Part shown: piece by piece, positions 1,751 through 43,531 of the stretch | Layout of the letters: each line of letters begins with the position of its first letter | Position numbering within the stretch: position 1 is the stretch's first letter | Source: a virus | Strand: one strand, 5' to 3' | IMG/VR virus record: IMGVR_UViG_3300008267_000817 | Coordinates: 1-46,972 of that record | DNA length: 46,972 nt | Made by a program: the position numbers and the translations under genes | Notes under the pieces: generated by a model | What the model saw: only the letters and a program-made list of their open reading frames with translations | The model's database searches: none | Told to the model about the DNA's origin: nothing

Positions 1751-2533
1751 TTAAGCTGTTTTTGTAACACCCACCATAGAACCTAAACCTGGAATCCCAA
1801 CGTATAATAAATAATCAGCATAACCTTTATATTCAGGACAATAACCATCGACGATACGTATCCTAATATAATCTGTGATTGGTTTCAACCCATTTACTCT
1901 TAACGCTTTAACAATATCTTGATTATTGTCGACATACGGTAATTTTGCTCCGGCATCACCTTTTGTTACAATTGCTAAAGAAGCTTTAGATGGTTCTAAT
2001 TCGTAAGCATTATTACCCCCTTTTTCAATAAAAGGTTTTGTAATATCACCAGAATAATTTGTGGTTATTTCCCGATTAAAAAGATATAAATAATTTTGTG
2101 AAGCGTTTCCCATATTTTGAGGATAAGCTGAACCAACATACCAAGCTCTTGGTATGAAACTACCTAAAATAAAATCATCTACACTATTATTTTGTAATGC
2201 GAATCTTTCCATTTTTAAATAATCGTTCATTTTTTGTTTGGTGATTAATATTGTTTTTCCTAAAATACCACTTAACATCGATTGTTGTCCACCTAAATAT
2301 TTTAACATAGAATTATTAAAAATATTAGCCTCAAAACCATATTGATTACTGGTAGGATTCCATTTTAAAAATTCCTTGAATCCAGGAATTGTCATAACAC
2401 TCGCCGCATTACCACCACCTATTTGGGGTTGTGTCTGCGTTTGCCCTGTAGGTGTTGCTTGTTCTTTTAAAATAGTATTCTTATATAAACCAAGAATTCT
2501 TGATTTTTCTTCTTCCGTGATTAAAAATTTCAT
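1751..2533 (-). CDS. Putative virion protein with capsid-targeting N-terminus
   Basis: A 260-residue protein of unknown fold. It begins MKFLITEEEKSRILGLYKN, an amphipathic helix, and reaches ILKE at residue 24, an L-x-E site of the kind cut by T4-type prohead proteases. A Q/T/P-rich linker (residues 25-40) follows, as expected after a removable leader. The remainder is a mixed globular domain with no recognisable motif. Upstream on the minus strand lies the TATTTAT motif shared with structural genes. Head-internal cargo is an inference. Confidence 0.6.
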   Translation of the reverse strand: MKFLITEEEKSRILGLYKNTILKEQATPTGQTQTQPQIGGGNAASVMTIPGFKEFLKWNPTSNQYGFEANIFNNSMLKYLGGQQSMLSGILGKTILITKQKMNDYLKMERFALQNNSVDDFILGSFIPRAWYVGSAYPQNMGNASQNYLYLFNREITTNYSGDITKPFIEKGGNNAYELEPSKASLAIVTKGDAGAKLPYVDNNQDIVKALRVNGLKPITDYIRIRIVDGYCPEYKGYADYLLYVGIPGLGSMVGVTKTA

Positions 2534-3063: not shown

Positions 3064-3576
3064 TTATGGTTTTTTTGTGGGTGTGGGTAAAGCGGGTTTT
3101 GCTGCAAAATTCTTAGTCATCATTTCAACAGCCTTTGGTTTAATAGCGTTTAAAGCACTAATTACTTCAGAACTATACCTTCTGGTTTTTATATGTTTAC
3201 CGTATCCTTGTGTTGGGTCACTACCATCAAAAAATGCTGAAATAGCCGATATTAATGTTTTTGGTGCTGCGTAAACATCTAAATCAGTCGTACTATTATT
3301 CCACGATAAAGTATTAACACCCCATTTAATTTCATAACATACTGATGGTGGATTTTGTCCTTTTAATTCAACACGTTTAGTTTGAAATGTATCAATTTTA
3401 GCGTTTGGGTATTTTTGATTTAAACTATTTACAATACTATTTGCGTAATTAACAATATTAAATATTGTATCTTGAAGGTATTTGTCCTTATTTGGATCAA
3501 CATTGGTTTGTTCATTAATAACGCGTTTAACAATTCTAACTAAATCTGATTCTGTCAATCTAATAACTTTTTTCAT
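3064..3576 (-). CDS. Putative virion protein, VKRVINE leader
   Basis: A 170-residue protein whose first 22 residues run from MKKVIRLTESDL to VKRVINE and are identical to those of the protein at 16630-17097, although the rest of the two proteins is unrelated. The leader is a basic amphipathic helix ending I-N-E, the I/L-x-E specificity of T4 gp21-type prohead proteases. The body (residues 23-155) has no recognised motif and the end is K/P/T-rich (PALPTPTKKP). A minus-strand TATTTAT motif lies about 15 bases upstream. Likely role: a protein packaged in the head and processed during maturation. Confidence 0.65.
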   Translation of the reverse strand: MKKVIRLTESDLVRIVKRVINEQTNVDPNKDKYLQDTIFNIVNYANSIVNSLNQKYPNAKIDTFQTKRVELKGQNPPSVCYEIKWGVNTLSWNNSTTDLDVYAAPKTLISAISAFFDGSDPTQGYGKHIKTRRYSSEVISALNAIKPKAVEMMTKNFAAKPALPTPTKKP

Positions 3577-7258: not shown

Positions 7259-7424
7259 GGTTGCTTGATTCCTGGTAGTATAGCAACACCCATTGGGATA
7301 TTCGGGAAAATTCCGTGAATGGGGGCGTAAGCAAAGGGTGACTTACAATGGTGGAGTGCCAAAAACAAAAGAAACGAGACATAGGGGTGATCTTATGTTG
7401 GTTACAAATCTCCACCTTTTTTAA
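7259..7424 (+). ncRNA. Structured leader RNA before methyltransferases
   Basis: Successive stems GTTGCT/AGCAAC, CCCATT/AATGGG (with an inner GGAA/TTCC), GTAAG/CTTAC and GGTGGAG (7350-7356)/CTCCACC (7410-7416) fill this 165-base stretch. The last one is followed by TTTTTT, so transcription may stop or be attenuated just before the methyltransferase operon. The frame that runs through here into the first methyltransferase is not supported by methyltransferase homology. Confidence 0.5.
7350..7422 (+). terminator. Possible attenuator ahead of methyltransferases
   Basis: Seven-pair stem GGTGGAG/CTCCACC with a long loop and six T, ending 15 bases before the first methyltransferase ATG. Confidence 0.5.
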
Positions 7425-7437
7425 AATTAAAAAAATT

Positions 7438-8352
7438 ATGAATGTATTAAGTGTATTTGATGGATTATCCTGTGGTCAGATTGCGTTAAATCGAGTTGGT
7501 ATTAAATATGATAAATATTTTGCCAGTGAAGTGGATAAACACACAATAAAGGTAACCCAACATAATTATCCAAACACAATACAACTGGGTGATGTAACAA
7601 AAGTCAAAGGTTCTGACTTACCAAAAATTGATTTATTATTTGGTGGATCACCATGTCAAGGTTTTTCATTTGCTGGTAAACAATTAAATTTTGAGGATTC
7701 AAGAAGTAAGTTGTTTTTTGAATTCGTTAGATTAAAAAATGAATTACAACCAAAATATTTCTTATTGGAGAATGTGGTGATGAAACAAGAGTTTCAAGAT
7801 GTTATTACAGAATATTTGGGTGTTGAACCAATCAAGATAAATAGCAATTTAGTTTCCGCACAGACAAGGGAACGATTATACTGGACAAATATCCCAAACA
7901 TCAATCAACCTGAAGATCTTGGAATCACATTAAATGATATATTGGAAGATATTGGTGTCAATGGTGAAGTGTTTGATAGAACAAAATTAAATAAGGCGAC
8001 AATACTTGGACGAAGATTGAACGAACAAGGGAAACGAGACGACTATAATAAAAGCATTCCAATTTCACAATGTCTGGAAGTAAGGGCAAGCAACCGGGAT
8101 AAAAGTAATTGTATTACAACGGTGGCAAAGGATAATGTTTTAACAACGATGCCGATTGGACGACACGTCGATGCGTTTAAGAAAAAATTACCATTTAGAT
8201 ATTATACAATTAAAGAATATTGTAGATTGCAAACTGTGCCGGATGATTATTTTGATGGTGTTGCATCAGAGAATCAAATTAGAAAAATGATTGGGAATGG
8301 GTGGACAGTTGATGTAATCGCCCATATATTTAAAGAAATTAAAGAATTATGA
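7438..8352 (+). CDS. DNA cytosine-5 methyltransferase, copy 1
   Basis: A 304-residue C5 DNA methyltransferase that transfers a methyl group from S-adenosylmethionine to cytosine in DNA. Motif I is FDGLSCGQIAL (6-16), motif IV GGSPCQGFS (69-77) with catalytic C73, motif VI ENV (111-113), motif VIII QTRERLYWTN (142-151), motif X at the end (MIGNGWTVDVIAHIF). I start it at ATG 7438, because the other two copies begin with the same MNVLS; the frame extends 30 codons further upstream through an RNA structure. First gene of a four-gene operon with ATGA overlaps. Likely use: protecting phage DNA from restriction. Confidence 0.92.
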   Translation: MNVLSVFDGLSCGQIALNRVGIKYDKYFASEVDKHTIKVTQHNYPNTIQLGDVTKVKGSDLPKIDLLFGGSPCQGFSFAGKQLNFEDSRSKLFFEFVRLKNELQPKYFLLENVVMKQEFQDVITEYLGVEPIKINSNLVSAQTRERLYWTNIPNINQPEDLGITLNDILEDIGVNGEVFDRTKLNKATILGRRLNEQGKRDDYNKSIPISQCLEVRASNRDKSNCITTVAKDNVLTTMPIGRHVDAFKKKLPFRYYTIKEYCRLQTVPDDYFDGVASENQIRKMIGNGWTVDVIAHIFKEIKEL

Positions 8353-9203
8353 ATGTATTAAGTCTGTTTGACGGATTATCCTGTGGTCAGATTGCTCTTA
8401 ACAAGGTCGGAATTAAATATGATAAATATTTTGCGTCAGAAATTGATAAACCAGCGATTAAAGTAACCCAACATAACTATCCAAACACAATACAAATCGG
8501 TGATGTGACACAAGTTAAAGGGTCTGATTTACCAAAAATTGATTTACTTATTGGTGGTAGTCCTTGTCAATCTTTTTCAAATGCCGGGAAGGGAGAAGGT
8601 TTTGATGGTAAAAGTGGTTTATTTTGGGAGTATGTTAGATTATTAAAAGAAGTTAAACCAACCTATTTTTTATTGGAGAATGTCAAAATGAAAAAAGAAT
8701 GGCAGGTAATAATTTCCAAAGAATTAGGGGTTGACCCAATACTAATAAATTCAAACCTGGTTTCAGCTCAAAATAGGGAACGATTGTATTGGACAAATAT
8801 TCCAAATATTGAAAAACCAATAAACAAAAACATCTTTATTGAAGATATTTTAGATGAAACTTTTGACGAAAAATATTGGTTACCAGAAAAAAATTCAAAC
8901 TTATTAAGGAATAAGGTTGATTTAACAAACGCACCCAATCTTTGTTGTATTGATGTATATAATAAAAAATATAAAACCGATAGGAAATCACCAACATTAA
9001 CATTGCCACATCACAATTCTTTAAGATTTTATCAAAATGGTAATATAAGGAAATTAACACCAAACGAATGTGAAAAATTACAAACGGTACCGATTAATTA
9101 TACTAATGTTGATTTATCTGATATTCATAGATATGCTATGTTAGGTAATGGGTGGACAGTGGATGTGATTGCTCATATATTTAAAGAAATTAAAGAATTA
9201 TGA
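8349..9203 (+). CDS. DNA cytosine-5 methyltransferase, copy 2
   Basis: A 284-residue paralogue of copy 1 overlapping it by ATGA. The motifs are in the same places: FDGLSCGQIAL (7-17), GGSPCQSFS with catalytic C73, ENV, QNRERLYWTN, and the C-terminal GNGWTVDVIAHIFKEIKEL shared word for word. The region between motif VIII and the end, where C5 enzymes carry the target recognition domain, is shorter and unrelated to copy 1 (e.g. EDILDETFDEKYW...), so a different target sequence is expected. Confidence 0.92.
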   Translation: MNVLSLFDGLSCGQIALNKVGIKYDKYFASEIDKPAIKVTQHNYPNTIQIGDVTQVKGSDLPKIDLLIGGSPCQSFSNAGKGEGFDGKSGLFWEYVRLLKEVKPTYFLLENVKMKKEWQVIISKELGVDPILINSNLVSAQNRERLYWTNIPNIEKPINKNIFIEDILDETFDEKYWLPEKNSNLLRNKVDLTNAPNLCCIDVYNKKYKTDRKSPTLTLPHHNSLRFYQNGNIRKLTPNECEKLQTVPINYTNVDLSDIHRYAMLGNGWTVDVIAHIFKEIKEL

Positions 9204-10090
9204 ATGTATTAAGTCTGTTTGATGGGATGTCCTGCGGACAATTAGCACTACAAAAATCCGGTATTAAATATGATAAATATTTTGCATCAGAAATCGATAA
9301 ACACGCAATACAAGTAACCCAACATAATTTCCCAGAAACAATTCAGGTTGGAAACATTATAGGGTTGGATACCTCTACCCTACCAAAGATAGATTTAGTT
9401 TTTGGTGGTAGTCCTTGTCAATCTTTTAGTCGGTCTGGTGATGGGTCTGGGTTTGATGGTAAGAGTGGATTATTTTGGGAATTTATTAGAATTCTAAATG
9501 AAGTTAAACCAAAATACTTTTTACTTGAGAATGTTGAAATGAAAAAGGAATGGGAAAAAATTATTACCGATGCTGTTGGTGTTGAACCAGTTATGATTGA
9601 TAGTAAGTTTTTTTCAGCGCAAAAGAGACAAAGATTATACTGGACAAACATCCCATTTGACAAAAACATTGAAGATAAGAACATTCATATACTTGATATT
9701 TTACAACCGAATGGAACTGAAAAAACAATTAACGACCACCCCTTGGTTCTTGATATTAATGAAGAAGGGTTTAAAATCCGTAATGGAACAAAAAAGGGTT
9801 ATTTATATGCTAACAATGGGGATTGTGTTAATTTGGAAGTACCAAAAAGTAAAACAAGAAGGGGAAGGGTTAGTATTGGAAAAACTAACACACTAAACAC
9901 CGCTTGTAATTATGGTGTTATTGTGGATGGAAATATGCGAGAACTAAATATTTTAGAATATGAACGACTCCAAACATTACCAGATAATTACACATCATTG
10001 GCAACACTCAACCAAAGGAAAAAAATGATTGGGAATGGGTGGACAGTAGATGTAATTGCACATATATTTAAAAAAATTAAAGAACTATGA
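9200..10090 (+). CDS. DNA cytosine-5 methyltransferase, copy 3
   Basis: A 296-residue third paralogue overlapping copy 2 by ATGA. FDGMSCGQLAL, GGSPCQSFS with catalytic Cys near residue 73, ENVEM, QKRQRLYWTN and MIGNGWTVDVIAHIF are all intact. The recognition region (about 155-250) again differs from both other copies. It is slightly more divergent in the N-terminal half than copies 1 and 2 are from each other. All catalytic residues are present, so it is likely active. Confidence 0.92.
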   Translation: MNVLSLFDGMSCGQLALQKSGIKYDKYFASEIDKHAIQVTQHNFPETIQVGNIIGLDTSTLPKIDLVFGGSPCQSFSRSGDGSGFDGKSGLFWEFIRILNEVKPKYFLLENVEMKKEWEKIITDAVGVEPVMIDSKFFSAQKRQRLYWTNIPFDKNIEDKNIHILDILQPNGTEKTINDHPLVLDINEEGFKIRNGTKKGYLYANNGDCVNLEVPKSKTRRGRVSIGKTNTLNTACNYGVIVDGNMRELNILEYERLQTLPDNYTSLATLNQRKKMIGNGWTVDVIAHIFKKIKEL

Positions 10091-12616: not shown

Positions 12617-13807
12617 ATGAAACGCATTATATATGAAAGTATAGTATCATCTGGATTACCTAATGTTAAATTTGGTGATAATATTGTTGGTAATTCAACA
12701 CCGTCAAAAGATAAAATTAATCAAGAACTTCTTAAAGATGTTAGTGACGCAGCGAAAAAAGCTGGTGTTGAAGTAACTATCACAACCGCAGTTACTGGAC
12801 ATAAAAAAGGATCACGACACGAAACCGGAAATGCAATTGATATTGCAATGGTTGATGGTAAAGGATTTTCTGGTGGTGAACAACAAGCTAAAAAGTTAGG
12901 GATTTATGATTCAATTCAAAAATTCGTTGATGCTTTAATATCAATGGGTTATAAAAAAAATAGTGAAAAAGGAAACGATAAAGCTGTTTTAACTTTTGGT
13001 TTTCCAGGACATGACAACCATATTCACGTATCAAGAAAAAGTGGTATGGGTTCAGAACCAAAAACTATTGAAGATTTGAAAAAAGATTTAGATATTCCGG
13101 AAGATGATACATTCGCATATATCGATATTTCCAGTTCATCAACAATGAAAGGAAAAAACCAAACATTAAAAAATGATAAGTATTTTGTATTACATCATAC
13201 GGCAGGTAGAGGAACCCCAAAAGATGTGGTAAATATTTTAAATAAAAGAGGACTTGGTATTCAATGGGTTATTGATAGAAATGGTAAATTATATAAAACA
13301 TTACCATCTGGAAATTTCGGACAACACGTCGTCCCAAATAAGTCATCAGCACCAAAGGATTTATCAAATAGAACAGCACAAGGTGTTGAAATTATTGCCA
13401 GTAACGATAGGGATATTTTACCACAACAATGTAAAACGGCACTTAAATTAGTAAAACAATTGGGATATCCGTTAAGTAATATCTATGGACACGGAGAACT
13501 ACAAACAAATAAAGAATCAACAGAAGGTCAAACTTGTAAACAATATATTATAAGTAATTATGGTAAATCACCAGAACAACTAAAAATAAGTTCAGACGAT
13601 ACTGAAATCTCGACAACTAAAAAACAAAATCAAAGTTCCGATACAATAAAATCTTTAGAAGATTTAATGTCAGTACCAGAAGATGAGAGAAGATCAAAAT
13701 ATAAAGAGTTTTTGGCTAAAAATTTCAAGTTATTTGAAAATAGTGGTTTAAAGAAAAGATCTCCAAAAATCAATGAAGATATAGAAAGAATTAAAAAATT
13801 ATTATAA
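12617..13807 (+). CDS. Two-domain peptidoglycan hydrolase: M15 peptidase and amidase
   Basis: A 396-residue lysin. Residues 30-140 form an M15-type zinc carboxy- or endopeptidase: SRHETGNAIDIAM gives the zinc ligands H68 and D75, and GHDNHIHVS gives H135/H137. Residues 185-315 form an N-acetylmuramoyl-L-alanine amidase (amidase_2/PGRP): VLHHTAGRG with H193/H194 and YGHGELQTNKE...GQTC with H292 and C307. A helical tail ends NEDIERIKKLL. The start MKRIIYE ends in I-Y-E, like the capsid-type leaders of other genes here, so it may be virion-associated. I chose ATG 12617, as the earlier in-frame start lies inside the previous gene. Confidence 0.88.
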   Translation: MKRIIYESIVSSGLPNVKFGDNIVGNSTPSKDKINQELLKDVSDAAKKAGVEVTITTAVTGHKKGSRHETGNAIDIAMVDGKGFSGGEQQAKKLGIYDSIQKFVDALISMGYKKNSEKGNDKAVLTFGFPGHDNHIHVSRKSGMGSEPKTIEDLKKDLDIPEDDTFAYIDISSSSTMKGKNQTLKNDKYFVLHHTAGRGTPKDVVNILNKRGLGIQWVIDRNGKLYKTLPSGNFGQHVVPNKSSAPKDLSNRTAQGVEIIASNDRDILPQQCKTALKLVKQLGYPLSNIYGHGELQTNKESTEGQTCKQYIISNYGKSPEQLKISSDDTEISTTKKQNQSSDTIKSLEDLMSVPEDERRSKYKEFLAKNFKLFENSGLKKRSPKINEDIERIKKLL

Positions 13808-14992: not shown

Positions 14993-16564
14993 ATGGAAAA
15001 ATCTCTAATTATAGAAGAAATTAATAGAATCAACTTTCTAATGAACTTTGACACAAACAAAAGTTTTGAAGATCAGAAGTTATTACAAATATCCGAACAA
15101 CTTATATTTGAACAAGCAAAACCACAACAAAAACAAGGTCAACAGCAACTAACACCAGAACAAATCCAAGCTGCGAAACAAAAAATTCAAGCAAGTGCCA
15201 ATAAAACAGCATATGCAATTTTTGGTGAATTAATGAAAGCTTTTGATATGGATGGTGACAAAGATTTGAAAGATAATGATGGAACTAATGAAGGTGCAGC
15301 ATTAGCGGCAATCAAAAAAATTCAGAATAAAGAAACTCTTGATGCTTTAAATAAGTATATTGCAAACTGGAAACAATATCCTAATCTTAAAACTTGGTTG
15401 AATGCCGAAATGAGTGATTTTGATGGTGAGTATGGTGATATCTGGAATAAATTAGAAAAGATGGGTTATGCCGGTGCTAACAGAAATGTATTATTAAAAG
15501 TTGCTGGTGCAACACCAGTTGGTGCTATAATCAAAGGTGCTGATAAAGCTATCGACTCTTTAAGAGGTTTATCATTAGAACAAATAATGGAAGGGTTTAG
15601 AGAAATTGTAAATGGTATTGGTGGAACTGTAGCAACATTAATTTTAAGTGCGATTCCAGGGGGACAGGCTGCAAATATGTTAATTTATGGTGCGTTGACT
15701 GCTTGGGATTTCGTTCAAATGGATAAAGGTAAGGGTAATTTTTTTGATACAATTTTAGATACATTTTCATTATTACTATCAGGAATTGGATTACAGAGTT
15801 CATTAAAACCATTACAAGGGACTAAAGCGGTTCTTGGTGCTGAAAAAACGGCGGTTGGGTTTTTTGGAAAAATGGCTCAGAAATTCCCAAAATTAAGTCA
15901 ATTTTTCAATAGCATTGTTAGTAAAATTGCCGGTGGTGCGAAGTGGGTTATTGATGGTATTAAAAAAGGTGTTACCTGGTTAATTACAAAATTATCCTTT
16001 TTAAAGAATTTCGGTAATATGTTATTAGGTGCGCTAAATAAGGTTACAACTTTTTTAGGTGATATTGTGAACGCAATAAAAGGAACCGCTGGAAAAGTAG
16101 TCGCGAAGGTCGCACCAAAAACAACAGCATTATTACAAAAAGGGACAGCGTATTTTACGGCATACGCAAAAACAAAATTAGGTCCAATATTTCAATCAAT
16201 TGAGAATACTTTGGGTAAAGATGTAATGGGTGAATTAAATGAAAAAGTTGTTGATTGGATTAAAGATAAAATATTTGAGATGGGTTCTGAAGCAACAACA
16301 GAAAAAGTAAGACCTGTCATTTGTCAAGCAGGTAAAACATATTGTAATACTTTTGATACTATTATGAATGGTGTTGTTACCGCACATTCAACAAAAGGAG
16401 TTAAAAAAGCTGGAACTGAAACAGTGCATTTAGCAAAAGGAGTTAAAAAAGCTGAAACCGGAATTGAAAAAGCTGAAAAAATAGCTGGAGCAACTAAAGC
16501 TGGAACTGAAACAATACATAAAGGTCTTGAAGCCACTGGTGAAGAAGAAGGTGGTGAAGCTTAA
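14993..16564 (+). CDS. Putative virion protein with hydrophobic helices and EF-hand-like loop
   Basis: A 523-residue protein. Residues 1-40 form a helical leader ending LIFE (I-F-E, possible prohead protease site), followed by a Q-rich linker (KPQQKQGQQQL). DMDGDKDLKDND near residue 81 looks like a calcium-binding EF-hand/dockerin-type loop. Long glycine- and alanine-rich hydrophobic helices occur near 205-265 and 330-370 and could insert into membranes. The C-terminus has imperfect repeats of GVKKAGTETVH. A virion protein delivered with the DNA is plausible; no homologue recognised. Confidence 0.6.
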   Translation: MEKSLIIEEINRINFLMNFDTNKSFEDQKLLQISEQLIFEQAKPQQKQGQQQLTPEQIQAAKQKIQASANKTAYAIFGELMKAFDMDGDKDLKDNDGTNEGAALAAIKKIQNKETLDALNKYIANWKQYPNLKTWLNAEMSDFDGEYGDIWNKLEKMGYAGANRNVLLKVAGATPVGAIIKGADKAIDSLRGLSLEQIMEGFREIVNGIGGTVATLILSAIPGGQAANMLIYGALTAWDFVQMDKGKGNFFDTILDTFSLLLSGIGLQSSLKPLQGTKAVLGAEKTAVGFFGKMAQKFPKLSQFFNSIVSKIAGGAKWVIDGIKKGVTWLITKLSFLKNFGNMLLGALNKVTTFLGDIVNAIKGTAGKVVAKVAPKTTALLQKGTAYFTAYAKTKLGPIFQSIENTLGKDVMGELNEKVVDWIKDKIFEMGSEATTEKVRPVICQAGKTYCNTFDTIMNGVVTAHSTKGVKKAGTETVHLAKGVKKAETGIEKAEKIAGATKAGTETIHKGLEATGEEEGGEA

Positions 16565-16629: not shown

Positions 16630-17097
16630 ATGAAAAAAGTTATTAGATTAACAGAATCAGATTTAGTTAGAATCGTAAAAAGAGTTATTAATGAATCTGA
16701 AACTGCTGCAACAGGTGGTGCAAAACCAGTATCTACTGAAAATGGAAAAAACGCATTTAAATTAATAAAGGCGGGAGTTGACGGTAATAATAAAGATACT
16801 ATGGCAAAAGGGATTTATACTATTAAAACAAAAGAAGATTACGATACTGTTATGAGACATATTCATAAATATATTGGTAAGTACCCAACTATTTTGGGTT
16901 ATTTAGCTAGTGTTTGGGAAAAAGTTAGTCAAGGTTCAAATTTGTTTGGTATATGGTCTAGCTCCAATAATTGGTTAAGTGATTTGGAGAGACATTTATA
17001 CCAATTCAACACTAATGAATCTGCCGCAACTGCAAGTGCTATGGGTAATTCACCAGGTAGAACTTTTAATGATGGTACTTTTAAACCGAGAAATTAA
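16630..17097 (+). CDS. Putative virion protein, VKRVINE leader
   Basis: A 155-residue protein with the same 22-residue leader, ending VKRVINE, as the minus-strand protein at 3064-3576. After E22 a small-residue linker (SETAATGGAKPVS) precedes a helical domain and a Ser/Ala/Gly-rich tail. The body has no recognised motif. The identity of leaders between unrelated bodies points to a transport or processing signal and not to common ancestry of the whole gene. Head-internal cargo is the best guess. Confidence 0.65.
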   Translation: MKKVIRLTESDLVRIVKRVINESETAATGGAKPVSTENGKNAFKLIKAGVDGNNKDTMAKGIYTIKTKEDYDTVMRHIHKYIGKYPTILGYLASVWEKVSQGSNLFGIWSSSNNWLSDLERHLYQFNTNESAATASAMGNSPGRTFNDGTFKPRN

Positions 17098-26945: not shown

Positions 26946-28217
26946 ATGGGAAATTTAACAAATAGAGAAATTGATAATATCGTAAAAAGAGTTTTAAACG
27001 AAGCTCCAATTGATTATGAAGGATCGGATAGAATGGATCCGAGTATCGAAAGAAAAATTTTGGGTAAAGAAACACCATATTCGAAACACCCAGCGATGCC
27101 AAAAATGAGTAGAGATTTCGTTGAACTCGTTTCTTCAAAAAGATTTAATGATACTGTTAGTAAGTTAAGAACTGTTCTCCAAAGAACAACTGGTTCAACA
27201 GCACAACTAAGTAGTAGAAATCCTTTAATGAGTTTAATGATGTTGGTTTCACAAGCGATTCAACAAACATCAAGAATTGAAAGTAGATACAAAGATGACC
27301 TTGAAAATATGGCCGTTGAATTAGTTAAAAAAGAACTTGGAATACCAGCCGGACAATTACAATTTGACGCAAAACTTATTGGTACGGGTCAAAGTGAATC
27401 AACTCAAAGGATGCGAAGACAAGCTGAAGAACCATCAAGAGAAGAAATGACACAAGCTTTTAAGAGTGCTCAAGAACACGAAAATGACGTTGAAGCATTT
27501 TTAGATGCTATGGATAATTTTGATATGGAAAGAGCAAAAAGAAGAATGATAAATGCTCTTATTGGTGGTGCAGCAAAAAAAGGACAATATATGTATCATT
27601 TGGTTTCGGAAAAATTAAATGATATTAATCCAGATTTAATTGAATACTATAGTTTATCAACAGCAATTGTAGATCACCTATACTGGTTATACCCAGAAGA
27701 AACTTTGGCGGCAATGTCAGGACAAGGTGGTGGTGAAATTGGTACATCAGAAGTTGATGACACAACAGACCCACCAACAGTAATTGCAAGAGGTGTTAAT
27801 TTTCCAACTCTGGTTCACGAACTTGTTAAAGGTGTTCACGAAGTTCTTGGAACTCAAGGACTACCTGATGACCCAAGACAAGCTGAAATGGTAATGGCGG
27901 CAGAAGATACGGTTCCAGCTGAAGCTTGGGATTTAAAATTAGGTCCAGTATTTTGGGAATTATTACAAAAATCATACCCACTTGATATTTTAAGTGAAGA
28001 TGATAAAAAACACATTCAGTTGTATCTTTTTAGTAAGATAAGTGCAATGCCGGCAAAAGAATTCTTTGATTTATTTAAAGATGTGTTAGAAGAAAAACCA
28101 TCTGGAAAACAAAAAATACAAAGAATGGTTGACGAACTTGTTAACGAACTAAAAGAAGATGATGAAAATGAAGAAGATGAGGAAGATGATGATATTTTAT
28201 CACAATTAGGATTATAA
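26946..28217 (+). CDS. Putative virion protein with VKRVLNE leader
   Basis: A 423-residue, mostly helical protein. The first 19 residues (MGNLTNREIDNIVKRVLNE) are a shorter version of the VKRVINE leader seen at 3064 and 16630. The body includes a long helical domain and ends in a very acidic tail (KEDDENEEDEEDDDILSQL). It lies seven bases downstream of the previous gene and directly before the terminase operon. Structural or packaging-associated function inferred from leader and position. Confidence 0.65.
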   Translation: MGNLTNREIDNIVKRVLNEAPIDYEGSDRMDPSIERKILGKETPYSKHPAMPKMSRDFVELVSSKRFNDTVSKLRTVLQRTTGSTAQLSSRNPLMSLMMLVSQAIQQTSRIESRYKDDLENMAVELVKKELGIPAGQLQFDAKLIGTGQSESTQRMRRQAEEPSREEMTQAFKSAQEHENDVEAFLDAMDNFDMERAKRRMINALIGGAAKKGQYMYHLVSEKLNDINPDLIEYYSLSTAIVDHLYWLYPEETLAAMSGQGGGEIGTSEVDDTTDPPTVIARGVNFPTLVHELVKGVHEVLGTQGLPDDPRQAEMVMAAEDTVPAEAWDLKLGPVFWELLQKSYPLDILSEDDKKHIQLYLFSKISAMPAKEFFDLFKDVLEEKPSGKQKIQRMVDELVNELKEDDENEEDEEDDDILSQLGL

Positions 28218-28292: not shown

Positions 28293-30065
28293 ATGAGTTT
28301 ATCAAAAGAACAATTAATGTTAGAATATGTTAGATGTATGAAGGATACCCCATACGCGTTAAGAACATATTTACAAACATATGATAATACGGTATCAAAA
28401 TATGTCCCATTAGAATTATTTCCGGATCAAATATCACTCCTCAAAGATTATGAAGAATATGAGGAAAATATAGCATTAAAATATCGACAAGCCGGTGTAT
28501 CAACAGTAACCGCCGCTTGGGTATCAAAAAAACTTGTATTTGCAAAAAAAGAAAGACCAGAAAAAATATTGATTATTGCAAACAAACTCGACACCTCAAT
28601 GGAGATGGCAAATAAAATTAGAGCTTTTGTTGATCAGTGGCCAAGTTGGGTTGGAACTGGATTTTCAGCTGATAAGAACTCACAAAGACACTATAAATTA
28701 ACAAATGGTTGTGAAGTGAAAGCTGTTGCAACATCACGAGATGCGTTAAGGGGTTATACACCAACAGTTCTCGTTTTTGATGAGGCCGCGTTTATCGAAG
28801 CCGATGGTGATTTCTGGGCAGCTTGTATGGCATCACTATCTACCGGTGGTAAAGTAATTGTTGTTTCAACACCAAACGGATATGACCCAATTTATTATGA
28901 AATTTACAATCAAGCAACAAAAGGAATTAATAACTTTAAAATTTCTGAAATGTTTTGGTGGAAGGATCCGAGATATTCGAAAGATTTATATTTGGTTCCA
29001 ACTGATGATATGGTTGATTACCTTTTGAATAAAGAAGAAAAAGACCATAGTAAAAACATATCGTTTGGAGATAGTGACCCTTATGGTAGAGATTATGAAA
29101 AAATAAAAGAACTTTTTAACCAAGGATACAAACCATGCTCAACTTGGTATGAAAAAATGGTTAAAAAACTAAAATATGATAAAAGGAAGATAAACCAAGA
29201 GCTTAATTGTGAGTTTCTTGGGTCTGGTGATAATGTATTTGACTCAAAACAATTGGATTATATTAAAACAAATACAATACAAGACGCACCAAATAAAATG
29301 ATGGGTAACGCTCTTTTAATGTGGAAAGAACCAATACAAGGTCATAAATACATTATGGGTGTTGATGTTTCTCGTGGTGATAGTGAAGATTTTTCATCAA
29401 TCCAGATAATTGATTTTGATGAAAGAGAACAAGTTCTGGAATATGTTGGAAAAATCCCACCTGATGCACTTGCTGAAATAGCATATAAATGGGGAATGAT
29501 GTATAATGCATTTTGTGTTGTGGATATTACTGGTGGTATGGGAATTACAACCGTAAGAAAGATGCAGGAATTAGGTTATAAAAATTTATACATTGATGGT
29601 GTTGATTCTATGAATATTTGGGCTGTAAATAAAAGTACTGTAGATAAAATACCAGGAATAAACTTTAACAATAAACGAGTTCAGATAATTGCCGCATTTG
29701 AAGAATATGTTAGACACAAATTTAAGATAAGGAGTGTTAGATTATATAACGAAATGAACACATTTGTTTATGTAAATGGAAGACCAGATCACCAAAAAGG
29801 ACAACACGATGACCTTATTATGGGTATATCAATGGCAATTTATGTTGGGGAATCATCATTTCAAAAATTAGAAAAAGTAACAGAAAAGACAAAAATTATG
29901 ATTGAATCTTGGACTGTTGCAAATAACGATTCAGTTGGAAAACAAATTCATTTTGACCCTATGGTTCCAAATATGAACGCACAAAACGATAGATTTAGTA
30001 GGGATAATTCTGGACCATCCAGACGAGATTATATGGAATATGGTTGGTTATTTGGTAAAAGATAA
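28293..30065 (+). CDS. Terminase large subunit (gp17-like)
   Basis: A 590-residue packaging motor protein. The ATPase domain has a deviant Walker A YRQAGVST (64-71), as in T4 gp17 (SRQLGKT), Walker B VLVFDE (159-164) and a coupling motif STPNG (about 196). The RNase H-like nuclease domain begins around residue 350 with IMGVDVSRGDSEDFS and continues with VDITGG and a late HDDLIMG acidic pair. It docks on the portal, pumps DNA into the prohead and cuts the concatemer. No small subunit is recognised next to it. Confidence 0.93.
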   Translation: MSLSKEQLMLEYVRCMKDTPYALRTYLQTYDNTVSKYVPLELFPDQISLLKDYEEYEENIALKYRQAGVSTVTAAWVSKKLVFAKKERPEKILIIANKLDTSMEMANKIRAFVDQWPSWVGTGFSADKNSQRHYKLTNGCEVKAVATSRDALRGYTPTVLVFDEAAFIEADGDFWAACMASLSTGGKVIVVSTPNGYDPIYYEIYNQATKGINNFKISEMFWWKDPRYSKDLYLVPTDDMVDYLLNKEEKDHSKNISFGDSDPYGRDYEKIKELFNQGYKPCSTWYEKMVKKLKYDKRKINQELNCEFLGSGDNVFDSKQLDYIKTNTIQDAPNKMMGNALLMWKEPIQGHKYIMGVDVSRGDSEDFSSIQIIDFDEREQVLEYVGKIPPDALAEIAYKWGMMYNAFCVVDITGGMGITTVRKMQELGYKNLYIDGVDSMNIWAVNKSTVDKIPGINFNNKRVQIIAAFEEYVRHKFKIRSVRLYNEMNTFVYVNGRPDHQKGQHDDLIMGISMAIYVGESSFQKLEKVTEKTKIMIESWTVANNDSVGKQIHFDPMVPNMNAQNDRFSRDNSGPSRRDYMEYGWLFGKR

Positions 30066-30377: not shown

Positions 30378-31937
30378 ATGGAAAAAAATAATCTAACTAT
30401 TTGGCAGAAACTATCAAAAACATTTGGTCCAAACTCACTTTTAAATATGGATCAATCAAGTGTGAAATTAGATAAAACTGTTTTATTAAAAACACCAAAT
30501 AAACAAGAATACGAAAAAGAAAAACTTGAATATCAACAAACTTTATTTTTAAGTAATCAATGGCAAAAAATTGAAAATAATTTATACGCTCAAGCGGTGT
30601 ATTACGAACCAAATAGGATTTCAGCGTTTTATGATTATGAATCAATGGAATATACTCCAGAAATTTCAACAGCACTTGACATATATTCAGAAGAATCAAC
30701 AACACCAAATCAAGATGGTTATGTATTGCAAATTTATTCTGAATCAAAAAGAATTAAATCAATATTAACGGATTTATTTAATAATGTATTAGATATCGCA
30801 ATTAACTTACCAATGTGGGTTAGAAATACTTGTAAATATGGTGATAATTTTGTTTATCTAAAATTAGACCCTGAAAAAGGTATTGTTGGATGTTTTGAAG
30901 ATGCGATGTTAATATATCGAACATCAAGAGCACCAGAAAGAAGGGTATTTAAGGTGTTTGTTGGAAATATGGACGATAAGGATGTTGAAGCTTACGTACA
31001 ACGAGTTGCTAATAAATTTAAAAGAGACCAAGTTGTTGATTCTAAAACTGGTAATGTTGATTTACGATTTAACCAAATGGCCGTAGACCAAGATTATTTT
31101 ATTCCAGTTAGAGATCCTGCAGCAACAATGCCAATTGAAACATTACCGGGTGCTCAAAACTTATCTGAAATAGCCGATATTGAATATATTCAGAAAAAAC
31201 TTGTAACAGCTTTAAGAATACCAAAAGCATTTTTAGGTTTTGAAGAACCGGTTGGTAATGGAGATAATTTATCTTTACTTGATATTCGTTTTGCTAGAAC
31301 AATCAATAAAATACAAAAAAGTATGATTGCCGAATTAAATAAAATTGCAATCATTCATTTATTTTTATTGGGTTTTGAAGACGAATTACATAACTTCACA
31401 TTAGGATTGACAAATCCATCTAAACAAGCTGATTTACTTATGGTTTCAGTTTGGAAAGAAAAAATATTACTATATAAGGATATGGTAACTGAAATTCCAA
31501 ACACATTACAACCAACTTCTGCAACTTGGGCTAAAAAACATATATTCGGATTTTCGGATGATGAAATTAAACTTGAAATCCAACAAGTTAGAATGGAAAG
31601 AGCTGTGGCTGCAGAGTTGGCTAATACAGCAACCGTTATTACACATACTGGTATGTTTGATAATATCGACAAGTTATATAAAACTGTGTCTGGTGAAACT
31701 GTAACCGCTGGTGGAGCAGCATCAGGTGGAGCACCACCACCAGCACCAGGTGGAGAAGCTGGTGGACCACCACCACCTCCGGGAGGAGAACCTATGATGG
31801 ATAGTGTTGAAAAAAGAAATTACAACATACTTTTAGAAAGTGATAATTTGACGGAAGATGATTATATTGATTTATCAAAAGGTAGGAATTCATTAGGTGA
31901 TATTGAAAAAGAATTGGATAAATTACTAAATGGGTAA
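30378..31937 (+). CDS. Portal protein (gp20-like)
   Basis: A 519-residue protein at the expected position after the terminase. The sequence shows features of T4-type portals: an N-terminal wing domain with MEYTPEISTALDIYSEES and VRNTCKYGDNFVYLKLDPEKGI, the central PVGNGDNLSLLDIRFARTINKIQKSM stretch leading into the stem/clip helices, and a C-terminal crown. An unusual Pro/Gly/Ala-rich insert (about residues 448-474) precedes the last helical segment. The dodecameric portal forms the packaging pore and the neck attachment site. Confidence 0.88.
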   Translation: MEKNNLTIWQKLSKTFGPNSLLNMDQSSVKLDKTVLLKTPNKQEYEKEKLEYQQTLFLSNQWQKIENNLYAQAVYYEPNRISAFYDYESMEYTPEISTALDIYSEESTTPNQDGYVLQIYSESKRIKSILTDLFNNVLDIAINLPMWVRNTCKYGDNFVYLKLDPEKGIVGCFEDAMLIYRTSRAPERRVFKVFVGNMDDKDVEAYVQRVANKFKRDQVVDSKTGNVDLRFNQMAVDQDYFIPVRDPAATMPIETLPGAQNLSEIADIEYIQKKLVTALRIPKAFLGFEEPVGNGDNLSLLDIRFARTINKIQKSMIAELNKIAIIHLFLLGFEDELHNFTLGLTNPSKQADLLMVSVWKEKILLYKDMVTEIPNTLQPTSATWAKKHIFGFSDDEIKLEIQQVRMERAVAAELANTATVITHTGMFDNIDKLYKTVSGETVTAGGAASGGAPPPAPGGEAGGPPPPPGGEPMMDSVEKRNYNILLESDNLTEDDYIDLSKGRNSLGDIEKELDKLLNG

Positions 31938-31959: not shown

Positions 31960-32673
31960 ATGAAATTTGGTATTATAAAAAGTAAAATAGAAAATATTTT
32001 AACCGAAAGTTTTGTTAAAAATTCATTCAAGGATCAAATCTTTGTTTTTGAAGAATTAGTATTAAAAAACAAAAACATCAAAAAATTATATTTTCTATAT
32101 GATGAACTATCATCAAATAAAGGATTGGATAAAAATTTAGCTGAAAGTTTTATTAACGAATGTATTACTATATTCGAAAATACTACTAACAAAATTTCAC
32201 CAAATGAAATTAAAGAATTGGAACTTTGGGTTAGTGAAGTAAAAAGTGAAAATAATTATGAAAATATTGATAATCTATTTTCATCAAATTTAGCATTACT
32301 TGAAAATAAACTAAAAAGTAGAAATCTAATCTCTGAAAACTTACAGAAATCAATCGAAACACCAGTTGAAATTAACGCAACTTTAGATGAGATTGTTGAA
32401 ACTGCGAATAAAACAATTAATGATTATATCTTAACTTTAAGTGAATCTGAAAGATTAAAAGTTAAAAACATATTAAAAGAATCAGATGAAAAACTACAAG
32501 TTAAGTTTGATTTACTTAAAGAAAGTGTTGTTGAAAAACTTACAGAACTTAAAGAAAACGAAGACAATAAAGAAGTATTAACAAAAATAGATGAAACAAT
32601 TCAAAAAGTTCAGGTCGAAAATTTTGATAGGTTAAACTATTTGAAACTAAAAGAACTGGAAAGGGATTTATAG
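31960..32673 (+). CDS. Helical prohead-core-like protein
   Basis: A 237-residue, almost entirely helical, Lys/Glu-rich protein. It sits between portal and protease, where T4 encodes core proteins gp67 and gp68. The leader MKFGIIKSKIENILTE (I/L-x-E at residue 16) suggests processing by the prohead protease. Coiled-coil prediction is likely throughout. Identity with T4 core proteins cannot be shown by eye. Confidence 0.62.
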   Translation: MKFGIIKSKIENILTESFVKNSFKDQIFVFEELVLKNKNIKKLYFLYDELSSNKGLDKNLAESFINECITIFENTTNKISPNEIKELELWVSEVKSENNYENIDNLFSSNLALLENKLKSRNLISENLQKSIETPVEINATLDEIVETANKTINDYILTLSESERLKVKNILKESDEKLQVKFDLLKESVVEKLTELKENEDNKEVLTKIDETIQKVQVENFDRLNYLKLKELERDL

Positions 32674-33420: not shown

Positions 33421-34146
33421 ATGAAAATTTTAGCACCAAACGAAATAGGTAGGGGAATTCTTATTGAATACGATGCCGGTTATATTAACCCAAAGAGTGA
33501 GAATAACCATTTCATAATGGAATCCAAGTCTTTTTTAGACCATTCAAAACCATTTGAATTCTATGCTGTTTTACAAAAATATAATACACCAAATAGAAAC
33601 GGAAGAGTATATCCGGAAAAAATTCTAAAAAGAGAAGCTGATAATTATAAAAAAATGATTGAGAAAGGAACTTCGCTTTCGGAACTTAACCACCCAGAAT
33701 CTTCATTAATAGATTTAGATAGAGTATCACATATGATTACTGATATTTGGTGGGATGGTCCAGTATTATTAGGAAAGTTAAAATTATTAACATCACCAGG
33801 TTTTCACGAAAGAGGTATTGTATCTACAAAAGGTGATATGGCTGCCAATTATTTAAGACAAGGGGTTACACTTGGAATTTCTTCTCGTGGTGTTGGATCC
33901 TTAAAGAAAGTTGGGGAACAAAATGAAGTTCAAGATGATTTTGAATTAATCTGTTTTGACCTTGTGTCTTCACCATCAACACCTGGAGCTTATTTATTTT
34001 TGGATAAAGATGATCGTCATAAATTTGATGAAAATTTGGATGAAGAAAATAAATTGAGAGACCAAAGAATTTCTGGAATGGGTGAAGATAGTTTAGATAA
34101 AACAAAAAATTTAATGAATAGATTGTCATCTTTTCTTGATAAATAA
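33421..34146 (+). CDS. Prohead protease (gp21-like)
   Basis: A 241-residue serine protease of the T4 gp21 type. ELNHPESS carries the probable catalytic H91, and TLGISSRGVGS carries the nucleophile S154 or S155, in the order and spacing of phage maturation proteases. FDLVSSPSTPGA (about 180-191) matches the conserved downstream segment. It trims scaffold, core and capsid proteins after I/L-x-E inside the prohead, consistent with the leaders on many proteins here. It lies between core-like and scaffold genes, as in T4. Confidence 0.9.
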   Translation: MKILAPNEIGRGILIEYDAGYINPKSENNHFIMESKSFLDHSKPFEFYAVLQKYNTPNRNGRVYPEKILKREADNYKKMIEKGTSLSELNHPESSLIDLDRVSHMITDIWWDGPVLLGKLKLLTSPGFHERGIVSTKGDMAANYLRQGVTLGISSRGVGSLKKVGEQNEVQDDFELICFDLVSSPSTPGAYLFLDKDDRHKFDENLDEENKLRDQRISGMGEDSLDKTKNLMNRLSSFLDK

Positions 34147-34578: not shown

Positions 34579-36057
34579 ATGAGTAAAAAATCTATGGTTG
34601 AAGAAGCTTTGTTACAAATTAAGAGTGTTGAACAAGCTATTAACAAAAATGCAGAAGGAATACTTTCATCAACAATGAAGAAAGAAATCAGTTCTCTAGT
34701 AAAAGAATCTCTTATGGAACAAGAGGAGATTGAAAATCCTGAAACTACCGATGAACCTATGGAACCAGAAATGATGTCTGAACCAGAAATGGGAAGTGAT
34801 GAACCAGAAATGATTGATGGTGATTCTGCTGACATTGAAGGTGAAGAACCAGAAATGGATGATATGGGTGGTATGGAAGATGATGAAGAAATGCCTACTG
34901 ATGACGAGACAGTGGATTTAACCGGAGCGTCAGATGCTGAGGTATTAAAGGTATTCAAAGCCATGGGTGATAATGACGGAATTGTTGTTACAAAGGACAA
35001 CAATGTTATTACATTAAATGATGGTGATGATGAATACATAATAAAAATAAATGAACAATTAGAAAAAGAGAACATGGAAAAAGAATTAGAAGAAATGTTT
35101 AATGAAGAGTGGGAAGATATGGATGATTTCGACTTTGAAGAAGAAGAGGAAGAAGACGATATGTCTGATTTTTTTGATTCTGAAGAAGATGAAGAAGATG
35201 AAGAAGAACTTTTTGAAATGGACGACTTCGATTTTGAAGAAGACGAAGAAGAAGATGAAGAAGAAGATGAAGATGATTTTGATAATTTTGGTGGTGATGA
35301 GCTTGAAGAAACAATCTATGAGATTGAAATGGATGAAGATGCTTTCGGAACTGAATTAGAAGAAATGATGTATGAATCTAAATCATTCAAACCAAAAGGT
35401 AATGTTGGTAAAGTTAAAAAAGTAAATTATACCTCAAATACTAAAGGTGGATTTGACGAAAAGAAAAAAGAAGCATTCGGTAAAGGTACTAAAGCTGTTG
35501 GAACCGGTAAAGCAAAGTTTGAGTACAAGGATGGTGAAAATCTTGATGGTGAATTTAAAGTAAAACCAAAAAAGGTTGAAACTAAAGAAGCTTCCAGATT
35601 CGTTAAACCAATCGAAAGAAAAGTTAAAAGAGGTCTAATGGCAGCACCAAAACATTTAAAAGAAGAAGTTGAAGAATTAAGAAGTAAAAATGATGAATAC
35701 AAAAAAGCTCTTGATTTATTCAGAACTAAATTAAATGAAGTTGCGGTATTTAATTCAAATTTAGCTTATGCTACAAGATTATTTACAGAACACTCAACAA
35801 CTAAACAAGAAAAAATCAATATTCTACGAAGATTTGACGATGTAGAAACTTTAAAAGAATCTAAAAATCTTTATAGAAGTATTAAAAATGAAATCTCAAA
35901 TAACTCATTAACAGAGAGTACTTCATTGAATGAATCTTTTGAAAGAAAGGTATCTAAAGCACCAGCTTCTGGATCCGCAGTAAATTTAATTGAATCAAAA
36001 ACATATGAAAATCCTCAATTTATGAGAATGAAAGATTTAATGACAAAAATAAAATAA
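34579..36057 (+). CDS. Prohead scaffold protein (gp22-like)
   Basis: A 492-residue, very acidic and helical protein between the protease and major capsid genes. Long runs of Glu/Asp with Met (about 50-115 and 165-260) are followed by a basic segment (270-350) and a C-terminal coiled coil (LKEEVEELRSKNDEYKKALDLF). Composition and position match T4-type scaffolds, which are degraded by the prohead protease during expansion. Several L-x-E and I-x-E sites are present. The sequence itself is too low in complexity for confident homology. Confidence 0.75.
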   Translation: MSKKSMVEEALLQIKSVEQAINKNAEGILSSTMKKEISSLVKESLMEQEEIENPETTDEPMEPEMMSEPEMGSDEPEMIDGDSADIEGEEPEMDDMGGMEDDEEMPTDDETVDLTGASDAEVLKVFKAMGDNDGIVVTKDNNVITLNDGDDEYIIKINEQLEKENMEKELEEMFNEEWEDMDDFDFEEEEEEDDMSDFFDSEEDEEDEEELFEMDDFDFEEDEEEDEEEDEDDFDNFGGDELEETIYEIEMDEDAFGTELEEMMYESKSFKPKGNVGKVKKVNYTSNTKGGFDEKKKEAFGKGTKAVGTGKAKFEYKDGENLDGEFKVKPKKVETKEASRFVKPIERKVKRGLMAAPKHLKEEVEELRSKNDEYKKALDLFRTKLNEVAVFNSNLAYATRLFTEHSTTKQEKINILRRFDDVETLKESKNLYRSIKNEISNNSLTESTSLNESFERKVSKAPASGSAVNLIESKTYENPQFMRMKDLMTKIK

Positions 36058-36136: not shown

Positions 36137-37844
36137 ATGGGAGCATTATTAGAATCAGGTCTTGTTGGTAACATCGGTTTAAAACACCTTAAAGTTATCA
36201 AAGAAGATACAATTAACAAATGGGATAAATTAGGATTCCTTGAAGGCTAAATTGTTAGCTAACGATATCGTTTCTGTACAAGCAATGAACTTACCTATCG
36301 GTAAATTGTTCTACTTCGTACCTCGTATCCAAGGATACCAACAAACTAACCCTACTGATGTTGCAACTCACTACTCACCTGTTGGTTCACCATCAAATCC
36401 AGGTACTAGTGGACTTGGAGACGGTTATCCAAACCAACCAGGTGCTTTCGCTAAAAATCTTTATGATTTATTTTACGAAGGTTCTGAAGCTAGTCTTGAT
36501 CCAGCTGGTTTATTTGATTATTCAAAAGGTAAATGGTCTGCGGTTACTGCATCTACAAACGCTATCGTATGGAATAGTGCTGGTGGTTTTGACAATGCAA
36601 ATGGTGCTTATGATGGTAAAAATATCAGAAAAGTTCTTATCAAACTTTGTGATTTCAGAACATTAGGTGATGGTGCTGGTAAACTAATCGGACCTGATGG
36701 AAATGAAGTTGATACTGAAACTTTCTTATCTGACTTGAAAATTTTCGCTAATACTGATTTTACAGAAAGTGGTGACACTTGTAATGTTGTTTGGGATGAT
36801 GCTAATAATATTGGTAAACCATTATTATTTAGAGTTGTAACACAACAATATGGTAAAGGAATTGTTAATTATGGTCAAAATGTGAAAACAACTTTCCCTA
36901 ATGACGGAAATGGTGGTTCATATTATGATATCTGTGATTCAACAGGTTGTATCTATTTAGAAGTTGATTTATCTTGTCCTGCATGTTTTAATTGTGGTGC
37001 TGATTCATTAGATGGTTATACAGGAACAACAATTGACACATTAGCAAATGGTGATTTTACAGCTGTTTATAGAACTTACGAAAACCTTGAGTTCGCTGAC
37101 GAAATCGGTGAAGTATCTTTTGATCTTGAGTCTGTAACTGTATCTGTTACTGAAAGAAAATTAAGAGCTCAATGGTCTCCAGAACTAGCACAAGACGTTG
37201 CTGCGTTCCATAACATCGATGCTGAAGCTGAATTGACAGCTTTATTGTCTGAACAAGTTGCAGCTGAAATCGACCGTGAAATCCTTAGAGACCTTAGAAA
37301 AGGTGCTGCTTGGAACTTACGTTGGGATTACAACGGATGGAGAAGATTGAACTTGACAACTTCTTACACTCAAAAAGATTGGAATCAAACTTTGATTACT
37401 GCAATCAACCAATTGTCTGCACAAATCCACAAATCTACTTTAAGAGGTGGTGCAAACTGGATTGTAGTATCTTCTGAAATTTCTGCAATCTTTGATGATT
37501 TAGAATACTTCCACGTATCTAACGCTTCTCCGGAGCAAGATCAATACAATATGGGTATTGAAAGAGTTGGAACATTGGCTGGTCGTTACCAAGTGTATAG
37601 AGATCCTTACTTCCCACCAAACACAATCTTGTTGGGTCACAAAGGAACATCTTTACTTGACACTGGTTACATCTACGCACCGTATGTACCTCTTCAATTA
37701 ACACCTACAATGTATAACCCATTCAACTTTACACCGATTAAAGGTATTATGACTCGTTATGCTAAGAAAATGGTTAACAACCGTTTCTACGCTAGAGTAA
37801 CTGTTGATGGTGTTCGTACATTTGATTTAAGAGAATTGAGATAA
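36137..37844 (+). CDS. Major capsid protein (gp23-like), frame change near residue 35
   Basis: T4-type major capsid protein. The first frame (ATG 36137) gives MGALLESGLVGNIGL...INKWDKLGFLEG and stops at TAA 36248-36250. The rest (36240-37844, 534 codons) is open in the +1 frame and carries the capsid features NLPIGKLFYFVPRIQG, a long insertion with GNVVW-type strands, and the C-terminal KGIMTRYAKKMVNNRFYARVTVDGVRTFDLREL. A +1 shift at CTT-GAA or GGC-TAA would join them; a restart at TTG 36240 or ATG 36285 is the alternative. Codon use in this gene is less AT-biased than its neighbours (e.g. GTAACTGTT, CGTTAC), as in highly expressed genes. Confidence 0.88.
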
Positions 37845-41818: not shown

Positions 41819-42714
41819 ATGATAGACGATAAAAGAATAAAAGAAATAATTAGAGAAGCAACATCTGATGGTGGGGGTAGAGGTTCTTATGTTGCACCAC
41901 TATCACCAGGGATTCGTTTATTTAAGAAAAATGAAAATGGACCATTTACAATACCGGTATCAAAATATGATTCACCAGAATTAGAATATGATAGTTATGA
42001 CGGTAAAATGGATACACCAAAGAGTAAAATAAAAAAAATAGAAAAAATAGCAAAAAAAGTTACAAATTATATTAAAACACATCCAGATAAATTTACAAGT
42101 GATGATGATGGGAATAATATAAATCCAACACCCGGAAAAAATAAAAAAATTGTCCCAATAAATGAAGCTAACACTTCAGTAACCGCTGGTGAGTTTAACG
42201 CACCATTTTCTTTGGGTCTAAAAAAATGGTCGAATTCAACATTAGCACCGTTTGATTATGAAGTAGACCATCACACTAATCATAATGCGAAAAAAATTAA
42301 TTTAAAAAATAATAAAAAAACTAACATACATTATAAGGGTCCAGAATTTTTTAAAAAATTAAAAGATGAAACGCATCCAGTTCATACGATAAGTGAAGAT
42401 TTGGCCGTTTGGTTTGGTAAGAAGAAAAAACCGAAAGGATCTTCACAACCAAAAGGACCTTGGGTTGATATTTGTAGGAAAGTTGACGGAAAACATCCAC
42501 CTTGTGGTAGGTCTGATGCTGACAAAGGTTCTTACCCAAAATGTAGAGCAGCTCACAAAAAAAAGCGGCTTGTCAACAAAAAAGAAAGGCTGAAAAAAAT
42601 GACCCACAAAGAGGTAAAGGACAAAAACCGGTTATGACTTCCTACAAAACAAAAAAGGAGTCGGTTGACTCCTTGGTTTCTAAAATCATTTTAGAACTTA
42701 GAAATTCTTTCTAA
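41819..42714 (+). CDS. DUF5872-like virion protein, frame change at an A run
   Basis: The leader MIDDKRIKEIIRE (I-R-E at residue 13) is capsid-type. A long Lys-rich middle leads to GPWVDICRKVDGKHPPCGR...YPKCRAAHKK (about 220-255), the Cys-rich DUF5872 signature seen in phages and some giant viruses. In the first frame it then runs into unlike sequence and stops at 42637. One base more in the A8 run near 42558 restores AACQQKRKAEKNDPQRGKGQKPVMTS and continues to TAA at 42712-42714, matching the family's usual K/R-rich end. I therefore give the longer coordinates. Convergent with the next gene. Confidence 0.72.
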
Positions 42715-43116: not shown

Positions 43117-43531
43117 ATCTTATAATTTTATTTGTTCCTTTACATACTTGAACGGCGTAACCATTTGCATAAGCACTTGGGTAAACATCAAATTTTGATT
43201 TAGCAGCTGCTTTACCTCTAGCGCATAATTTTGTTCCGGTTTTTTTCTTACCTTCACTTAAAGTATCATCATAATCATTATCAGAATCACCACCTTCAGT
43301 TTCATTCATTATAAAATCAAAAACCTGATCCATATTATTTTTTGCTTCAGCTATATGGTCTTGAGCCCAATCGTGTCCGTTTTCTAAAATCGATTCAATC
43401 TCATCTTGGTCTAAATCCAAAAGTAATTCACATTGCCTTTTCATTTGCTCAAGGTTTGAGAAGAACATATATCTATTAGACCTATGTTCTTCTTCTTTTA
43501 ATACCTTTTTTATTATTTTATTTAAACTCAT
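43106..43531 (-). CDS. DUF5872-like protein with capsid-type leader
   Basis: A 141-residue protein. The leader MSLNKIIKKVLKE (L-K-E at residue 13) is followed by a helical domain and an acidic linker (GGDSDNDYDDTLSEGKKK). The C-terminal KLCARGKAAAKSKFDVYPSAYANGYAVQVCKG (split around residues 101-132) is a motif I know from many marine and giant-virus-like proteins. The leader and the virion-gene context suggest a packaged basic protein. Function unknown. Confidence 0.75.
   Translation of the reverse strand: MSLNKIIKKVLKEEEHRSNRYMFFSNLEQMKRQCELLLDLDQDEIESILENGHDWAQDHIAEAKNNMDQVFDFIMNETEGGDSDNDYDDTLSEGKKKTGTKLCARGKAAAKSKFDVYPSAYANGYAVQVCKGTNKIIRYER

Follow-up and report, generated by a model that had tools for sequence, protein, structure and literature searches.

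Why should two viral proteins whose bodies belong to separate families begin with the same 22 residues? The question is raised by a window of 46,972 bases, an entire virus record, that encodes a T4-like head module and in which the following features lie far apart on opposite strands:

3511..3576, minus strand: type-1 leader of 22 amino acids, MKKVIRLTESDLVRIVKRVINE (profile, alignment)
3064..3576, minus strand: leader-bearing orphan protein of 170 amino acids, with a ATATTTAT box about 20 nt upstream
16630..16695, plus strand: type-1 leader with the same protein sequence as that at 3576 (profile, alignment)
16630..17097, plus strand: leader-bearing protein of 155 amino acids with a body unlike that at 3576; upstream box present

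The initial annotation of this DNA had pointed out two identical leaders on differing bodies, and alignment bears this out: MKKVIRLTESDLVRIVKRVINE forms the N-terminus of both proteins (named here, like all others, by the gene's start position) residue for residue, and the leader DNA agrees at 61 of 66 nt, all differences being synonymous. An ortholog search with the 3064-3576 protein gave none. Elsewhere in the window (7348-10090), three similar tandem genes read, from their sequence, as cytosine-DNA methyltransferases.

Related records were located via the head maturation protease, and five large ones were taken whole (G001, 257 kb; G002, 291 kb; G003; G004; G007). A 22-column profile, built from 26 seeds drawn from the same genomes, matches, at E<0.01 and seeds included, 41 of the 1,203 N-termini encoded by six related phage records, as opposed to none of 1,203 reversed and none of 6,015 shuffled control N-termini; given these clean controls, the profile itself is specific even though seeds are counted among the 41. 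Elsewhere in the proteins it matches 1 of 618 internal and 1 of 650 C-terminal segments, both of which are genuine additional leaders, one in tandem and one C-terminal. A single protein of G002 (224728-225318; L141:4728-5318) carries two leaders approximately 100 residues apart. The type-1 leader, MKKIIRLTESDLTRIVKRVIxE, has a helical hydrophobic moment of 0.66, reached by 1.2% of shuffles, and where the helix is longer or shorter by one residue, the hydrophobic-x-E motif moves along with it. A tblastn search of annotated phages with the 22-residue leader gave no match, which says nothing about absence, the query being too short for such a search. No paper surfaced in a full-text literature search with the leader string as query, and the literature yielded no virion proteomics for this clade.

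The profile search in other phages that had been suggested at the outset finds the leader repeatedly, and a DNA scan of IMG/VR with leader residues 1-9 as the only query extends it to at least 480 confirmed loci. The best 80 of these encode 61 distinct proteins with 50 unrelated body clusters; Glu22 and a hydrophobic residue 20 are each present in all 61, and conservation ends abruptly at Glu22, with none from residue 23 on. As these 80 loci were ranked by full-length similarity, the constancy of Glu22 is partly selected, and ortholog families therefore serve as the independent test. Applied to 84,980 genomes of cellular species, the same residue 1-9 scan yielded only five loci, in three MAGs, one of which also encodes Peptidase_S77.

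Ortholog comparisons bear on the further leaders of the window, listed below with a slash marking the boundary behind the final Glu where flanking residues are given:

26946..27002, plus strand: leader MGNLTNREIDNIVKRVLNE of a 423-aa protein upstream of the terminase large subunit gene (orthologs)
43493..43531, minus strand: short leader MSLNKIIKKVLKE (orthologs)
41819..41857, plus strand: short leader MIDDKRIKEIIRE (orthologs, several with a C-terminal leader too)
31960..32007, plus strand: 16-aa leader MKFGIIKSKIENILTE of a protein between portal and protease (orthologs)
2462..2533, minus strand: candidate leader MKFLITEEEKSRILGLYKNTILKE (one ortholog, ending ISE/Q)
14993..15112, plus strand: candidate 40-aa leader ending LIFE/Q (ortholog comparison)
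12617..12637, plus strand: candidate 7-aa leader MKRIIYE/S of an amidase protein (one ortholog, MKFKIRE/S)

The 26946 leader ends ...NIVKRVLNE/AP, and the third leader with VKRVLNE that had been reported is accordingly seen here. In its orthologs, [ILVM]xE/[AD] is found in all 25 scorable sequences (4 more being unscorable by pattern), while the leader ahead of the kept site varies in sequence and length, down to MLKE/AP. An AlphaFold model presents the leader as a separate, low-confidence helix (residues 6-17) ahead of a well-predicted body. A fold search with this body gave weak likeness to metallopeptidase or zinc-peptidase-like helical folds (Z at most 5.7), nothing informative in the PDB, and one uncharacterised phage protein in BFVD; H291, E292, and K295 are invariant in the body of the 26946-28217 protein. 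In the 41819 orthologs, leader length ranges from about 10 to 21 residues and the ending is [ILV]xE/[AVS] (14 of 15 scorable), and the 31960 orthologs retain LxE or FxE in 53 of 58. In the 43531 family, the conserved RYMFFSNL is preceded by a 22-aa leader, a leader of about 13 aa, or none, and the leader-bearing members aligned retain the E; structure prediction for this family was too uncertain for a fold search. Members of the same family (43106-43531, minus strand) end in a C-terminal tail, KLCARGKAAAKSKFDVYPSAYANGYAVQVCKG or KLWQQSLAWARARYDVCPSAYCNGAAVKRY, a second swapped module. Of the eleven leader genes originally proposed, six (3576, 16630, 26946, 41819, 43531, and 31960) are thus strongly backed by orthologs or the profile, and those at 2533, 14993, and 12617 are plausible but thin, with one to four ortholog sequences each. 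The remaining two were dropped: at 25919 some orthologs have Asp in place of the Glu, and 24008 shows no conserved site.

The single shared leader first envisaged gives way to at least three types that can stand in for one another, with lengths of about 11, 16, and 22 residues and the common ending [ILVF]-x-E, plus some C-terminal copies. The short second-half type (e.g., MKSLIRKILKE) has 64 N-terminal matches where 9.1 are expected (7-fold), a count to which type-1 leaders contribute through their own second half. The front type (e.g., MKFILTESQYKKIIFE) has 26 where 1.1 are expected (23-fold) and is followed by [ILVMF]xE in 17 of 23, exceeding all 2,000 shuffles. Given that [ILV]xE at N-termini shows only a modest excess genome-wide, the motif by itself was not taken as evidence. 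A leader of any type heads 91 of the 1,203 genes, 44 of which have no homolog among the 1,203. Orthologous bodies carry differing leader types or no leader at all, and a distant relative of the 14993 protein (25% identity) bears a type-1 leader in place of the 40-aa one. In some members of the 41819 family the type-1 leader stands at the C-terminus, as in ...VTLTETDLMRIVRRVLNEQ; three orthologs (L045:14447-15097, L042:19110-19760, and L261:2731-3681) carry a leader at the N-terminus and another at the very C-terminus. A general C-terminal tail motif was found not to be widespread, being essentially limited to the 41819 and 18383 families.

The protease that would act on such sites is encoded within the head module of the window, which comprises:

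28293..30065, plus strand: terminase large subunit, TerL (head module marker)
30378..31937, plus strand: portal protein (head module marker)
33421..34146, plus strand: head maturation protease, Peptidase_S77, T4 gp21 family (Pfam profile)
34579..36057, plus strand: acidic protein between the protease and the major capsid protein (position, composition)
36137..37844, plus strand: major capsid protein gene, phrog_138 (protein at 36240)

The assignment of a T4 gp21-type protease at 33421 is confirmed by PF03420 (79.3 bits vs. a curated cut-off of 27) and by a match to the T4 gp21 structure 5jbl (E 5e-13). Across 77 sequences H91, S154, and S155 are invariant, with H91 and S154/S155 marking what we take to be the catalytic His and Ser positions, and the protease's own N-terminal segment has an [IL]xE ending in 75 of 77. 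The acidic protein is a putative scaffold or internal core protein in the gp22 position and, judging by position and composition, the presumed receptor of the leaders. The capsid-protein propeptide of relatives ends INE/A or INE/S (e.g., LINE/A) in all 24 variants. Relative to these, the capsid gene of the window is missing 137 nt at 36137-36260, out of frame, and with them the propeptide cleavage site, which probably reflects a misassembly or a broken gene. Behind the capsid gene (38249-41579) come a subtilase and a CUB/fn3 protein, the latter of which starts like a signal peptide. Among leader-bearing records, every one in which a T4-type capsid gene was found also has Peptidase_S77. The protease occurs in 12 of the 16 leader records above 100 kb; the remaining 4 also lack the capsid gene and are for that reason regarded as fragments.

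A further link between leader and structural genes is provided by the box ATATTTAT (scored as TATTTAT), which precedes 58 of the 91 leader genes vs. 295 of 1,112 others (p 1.6e-12); among orthologs of the structural genes of the window, 32 of 60 have it. The Bacteroidetes-type TAnnTTTG box precedes 3 of the 91 leader genes vs. 119 of the 1,112 others. Boxes of two kinds thus occur genome-wide: ATATTTAT, at some 20 nt from the start of structural and leader genes, and TAnnTTTG, ahead of the rest. ATATTTAT is a candidate late promoter of the clade, which would imply late transcription of the leader genes. As to the clade, a ribosomal protein S21 gene (32668-32850, minus strand; E 4e-6, just under the Pfam cut-off) sits on the reverse strand within the head module and places the window among the bS21-encoding phages. 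In the consulted part of their published description, these phages likewise carry a reverse-strand S21 gene within the TerL-portal-protease-capsid region and are assigned predicted hosts among freshwater Bacteroidetes, and no leader system is described in that part (PMC9723584).

When 100 leader-bearing proteins were compared with Pfam, few matched, and the majority of bodies are orphans. Domains tied to peptidoglycan make up most of the clear matches (phage lysozyme, LysM, M23, GH19, and peptidoglycan-binding domains), and no replication enzyme was among the matches; comparison of the leader bodies with PADLOC gave marginal matches only.

These features invite comparison with known systems. 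In T4, gp21 cleaves after L/I-x-E (PMC9026906), and fusions to the capsid-targeting sequence (CTS) are packaged (PMC9026906; PMC9958956). The gp21-cut CTS of IPI-III and gpAlt resembles the present leaders in being a short N-terminal propeptide on unrelated bodies with a hydrophobic-x-E end, and T4 likewise has its Peptidase_S77 protease within the head gene cluster. Processing affects both termini of Alt (PMC9026906), as it may in the 41819 family. The leaders of IPI-III, of which IPII and IPIII have MKTYQEFIAE in common, are nevertheless unrelated in sequence to types 1-3, and the leader profile has no credible match on T4 (best E 0.07, for a frame of 34 codons). The present system further differs in its three architectures plus C-terminal copies, its mostly orphan bodies, its Bacteroidetes hosts, and its scale, with 23 leader genes in each of the contigs G001 and G002 as opposed to T4's handful. 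In phage P1, the N-terminal 30 residues of DarB suffice to bring a reporter into the capsid (PMC9024508), but the Dar system comprises a few anti-restriction proteins, with no common leader repeated on many orphans. In SPN3US and phiKZ, several head proteins are similarly cut after a Glu motif and internal proteins are ejected (PMC10052503); in SPN3US, however, the motif is A-x-E and the propeptides, mostly of 111-254 residues with two short ones (20 and 24), include no modular common leader. Flavobacterium phage vB_FspM_immuto, whose capsid protein (43% identity) makes it the closest cultured relative from Bacteroidetes, combines a T4-type head module, annotated prohead core protease included, with a capsid propeptide ending IVSE/A. 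By profile search the type-1 leader is absent from immuto, so the protease does not imply this leader; immuto has a shared leader of its own, MENFDLKKFLVENKLTxNSKxLxE, on four proteins, which suggests that leader sequences are lineage-specific. The shared leaders of immuto (L263-L266) also include MENFDLKKFLVENKLT... and MKKQILSEQF...IITE.

Taken together, the leaders most likely load proteins into the head, such that the likely cargo may be read off the genome. They are probably capsid-targeting propeptides, T4-like in function while not demonstrably homologous to those of T4. The T4-like signal initially proposed, tied to a gp21-type head protease, is strongly favored by leader swaps, the shared propeptide ending, co-occurrence with the protease, and the shared box; it has no sequence relation to the T4 CTS. 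Mechanistically, a short leader, helical where modelled and amphipathic in types 1 and 2, would bind the prohead core and carry any protein fused to it into the growing head. The Peptidase_S77 prohead protease would then cleave after the final [ILVF]-x-E and free the mature protein, which would stay in the head with the DNA, some of it probably to be ejected into the next host. We consider it likely that leader proteins are taken into the head and cleaved, and we lean slightly toward many of them being injected. For proteins with orthologs that lack a leader, packaging would be optional. Several points weigh against this account: the leaders show no sequence similarity to MKTYQEFIAE of T4; [ILV]-x-E is a weak motif, with Glu common at helix ends; the recognisable bodies, mostly peptidoglycan hydrolases, could act at lysis or in the tail; some orthologs have no leader; and the fold of the 26946 body matched nothing informative.

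Several other explanations were weighed against packaging. The head protease might cut the leaders of proteins that serve in structure or assembly (in the core, in the neck, or on the capsid inner surface) and not as injected cargo, as suggested by the 26946, 31960, and 41819 families, which are conserved head-module members, and by the protease and capsid protein bearing the same ending; most bodies, however, are singletons or patchy (44 of 91 without homolog; 50 clusters from 61 proteins), unlike essential structure, which renders this account unlikely. It is improbable that the leader is an uncleaved docking helix for the scaffold, tail, or another complex, with Glu merely its end. Whether they measure about 11, 16, or 22 residues, leaders close with hydrophobic-x-E, even with a shortened helix, and the capsid propeptide has the same ending where T4-type capsid proteins are cut, although the high type-1 hydrophobic moment (0.66) and the helix predicted, at low confidence, ahead of the body in two families would suit docking.

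The lysozyme, LysM, M23, GH19, and peptidoglycan-binding domains among the recognised bodies could instead indicate that the leader targets the host envelope or holds lytic enzymes inactive until lysis. The same leaders nevertheless head many proteins without such domains and contain no hydrophobic signal or membrane segment, and head-packaged muralytic proteins, such as T7 gp16, are known in other phages, leaving this explanation very improbable. Movement of the leader among unrelated genes, lastly, could reflect recombination or duplication of a cassette that acts as DNA and has no function in the protein. Within genomes, nucleotide identity is about 0.73 inside the leader but falls to 0.35 ahead of it and 0.31 behind it, such that DNA conservation is limited to the 66 nt of the leader; within these, amino acids are conserved, the same codon is used at a frequency of 0.57 vs. 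0.52 expected, and synonymous sites are near saturation. With codon choice near-random and flanking DNA unrelated, the cassette is rejected as having next to no probability, and the leader is a protein-level signal.

The proteins that large phages inject are mostly unknown and, for uncultured phages, hard to learn. If the leaders are packaging tags, each genome labels its own virion cargo: the six records offer 91 candidates and IMG/VR hundreds of others, nearly all of unknown function. They would also provide a loading tag that is short and portable and comes from beyond the T4/E. coli world, and they would show that packaging tags can multiply, be exchanged between orthologs, and give way to others from one lineage to the next. 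A bolder proposal, which we hold tentatively and at somewhat less than even chance, is a general address code whereby more than 20 fast-changing proteins per virion, among them counter-defence and wall-degrading effectors for injection, are loaded by swappable N- or C-terminal tags. Were this code true, the injected effector set of many uncultured phages could be catalogued from sequence alone.
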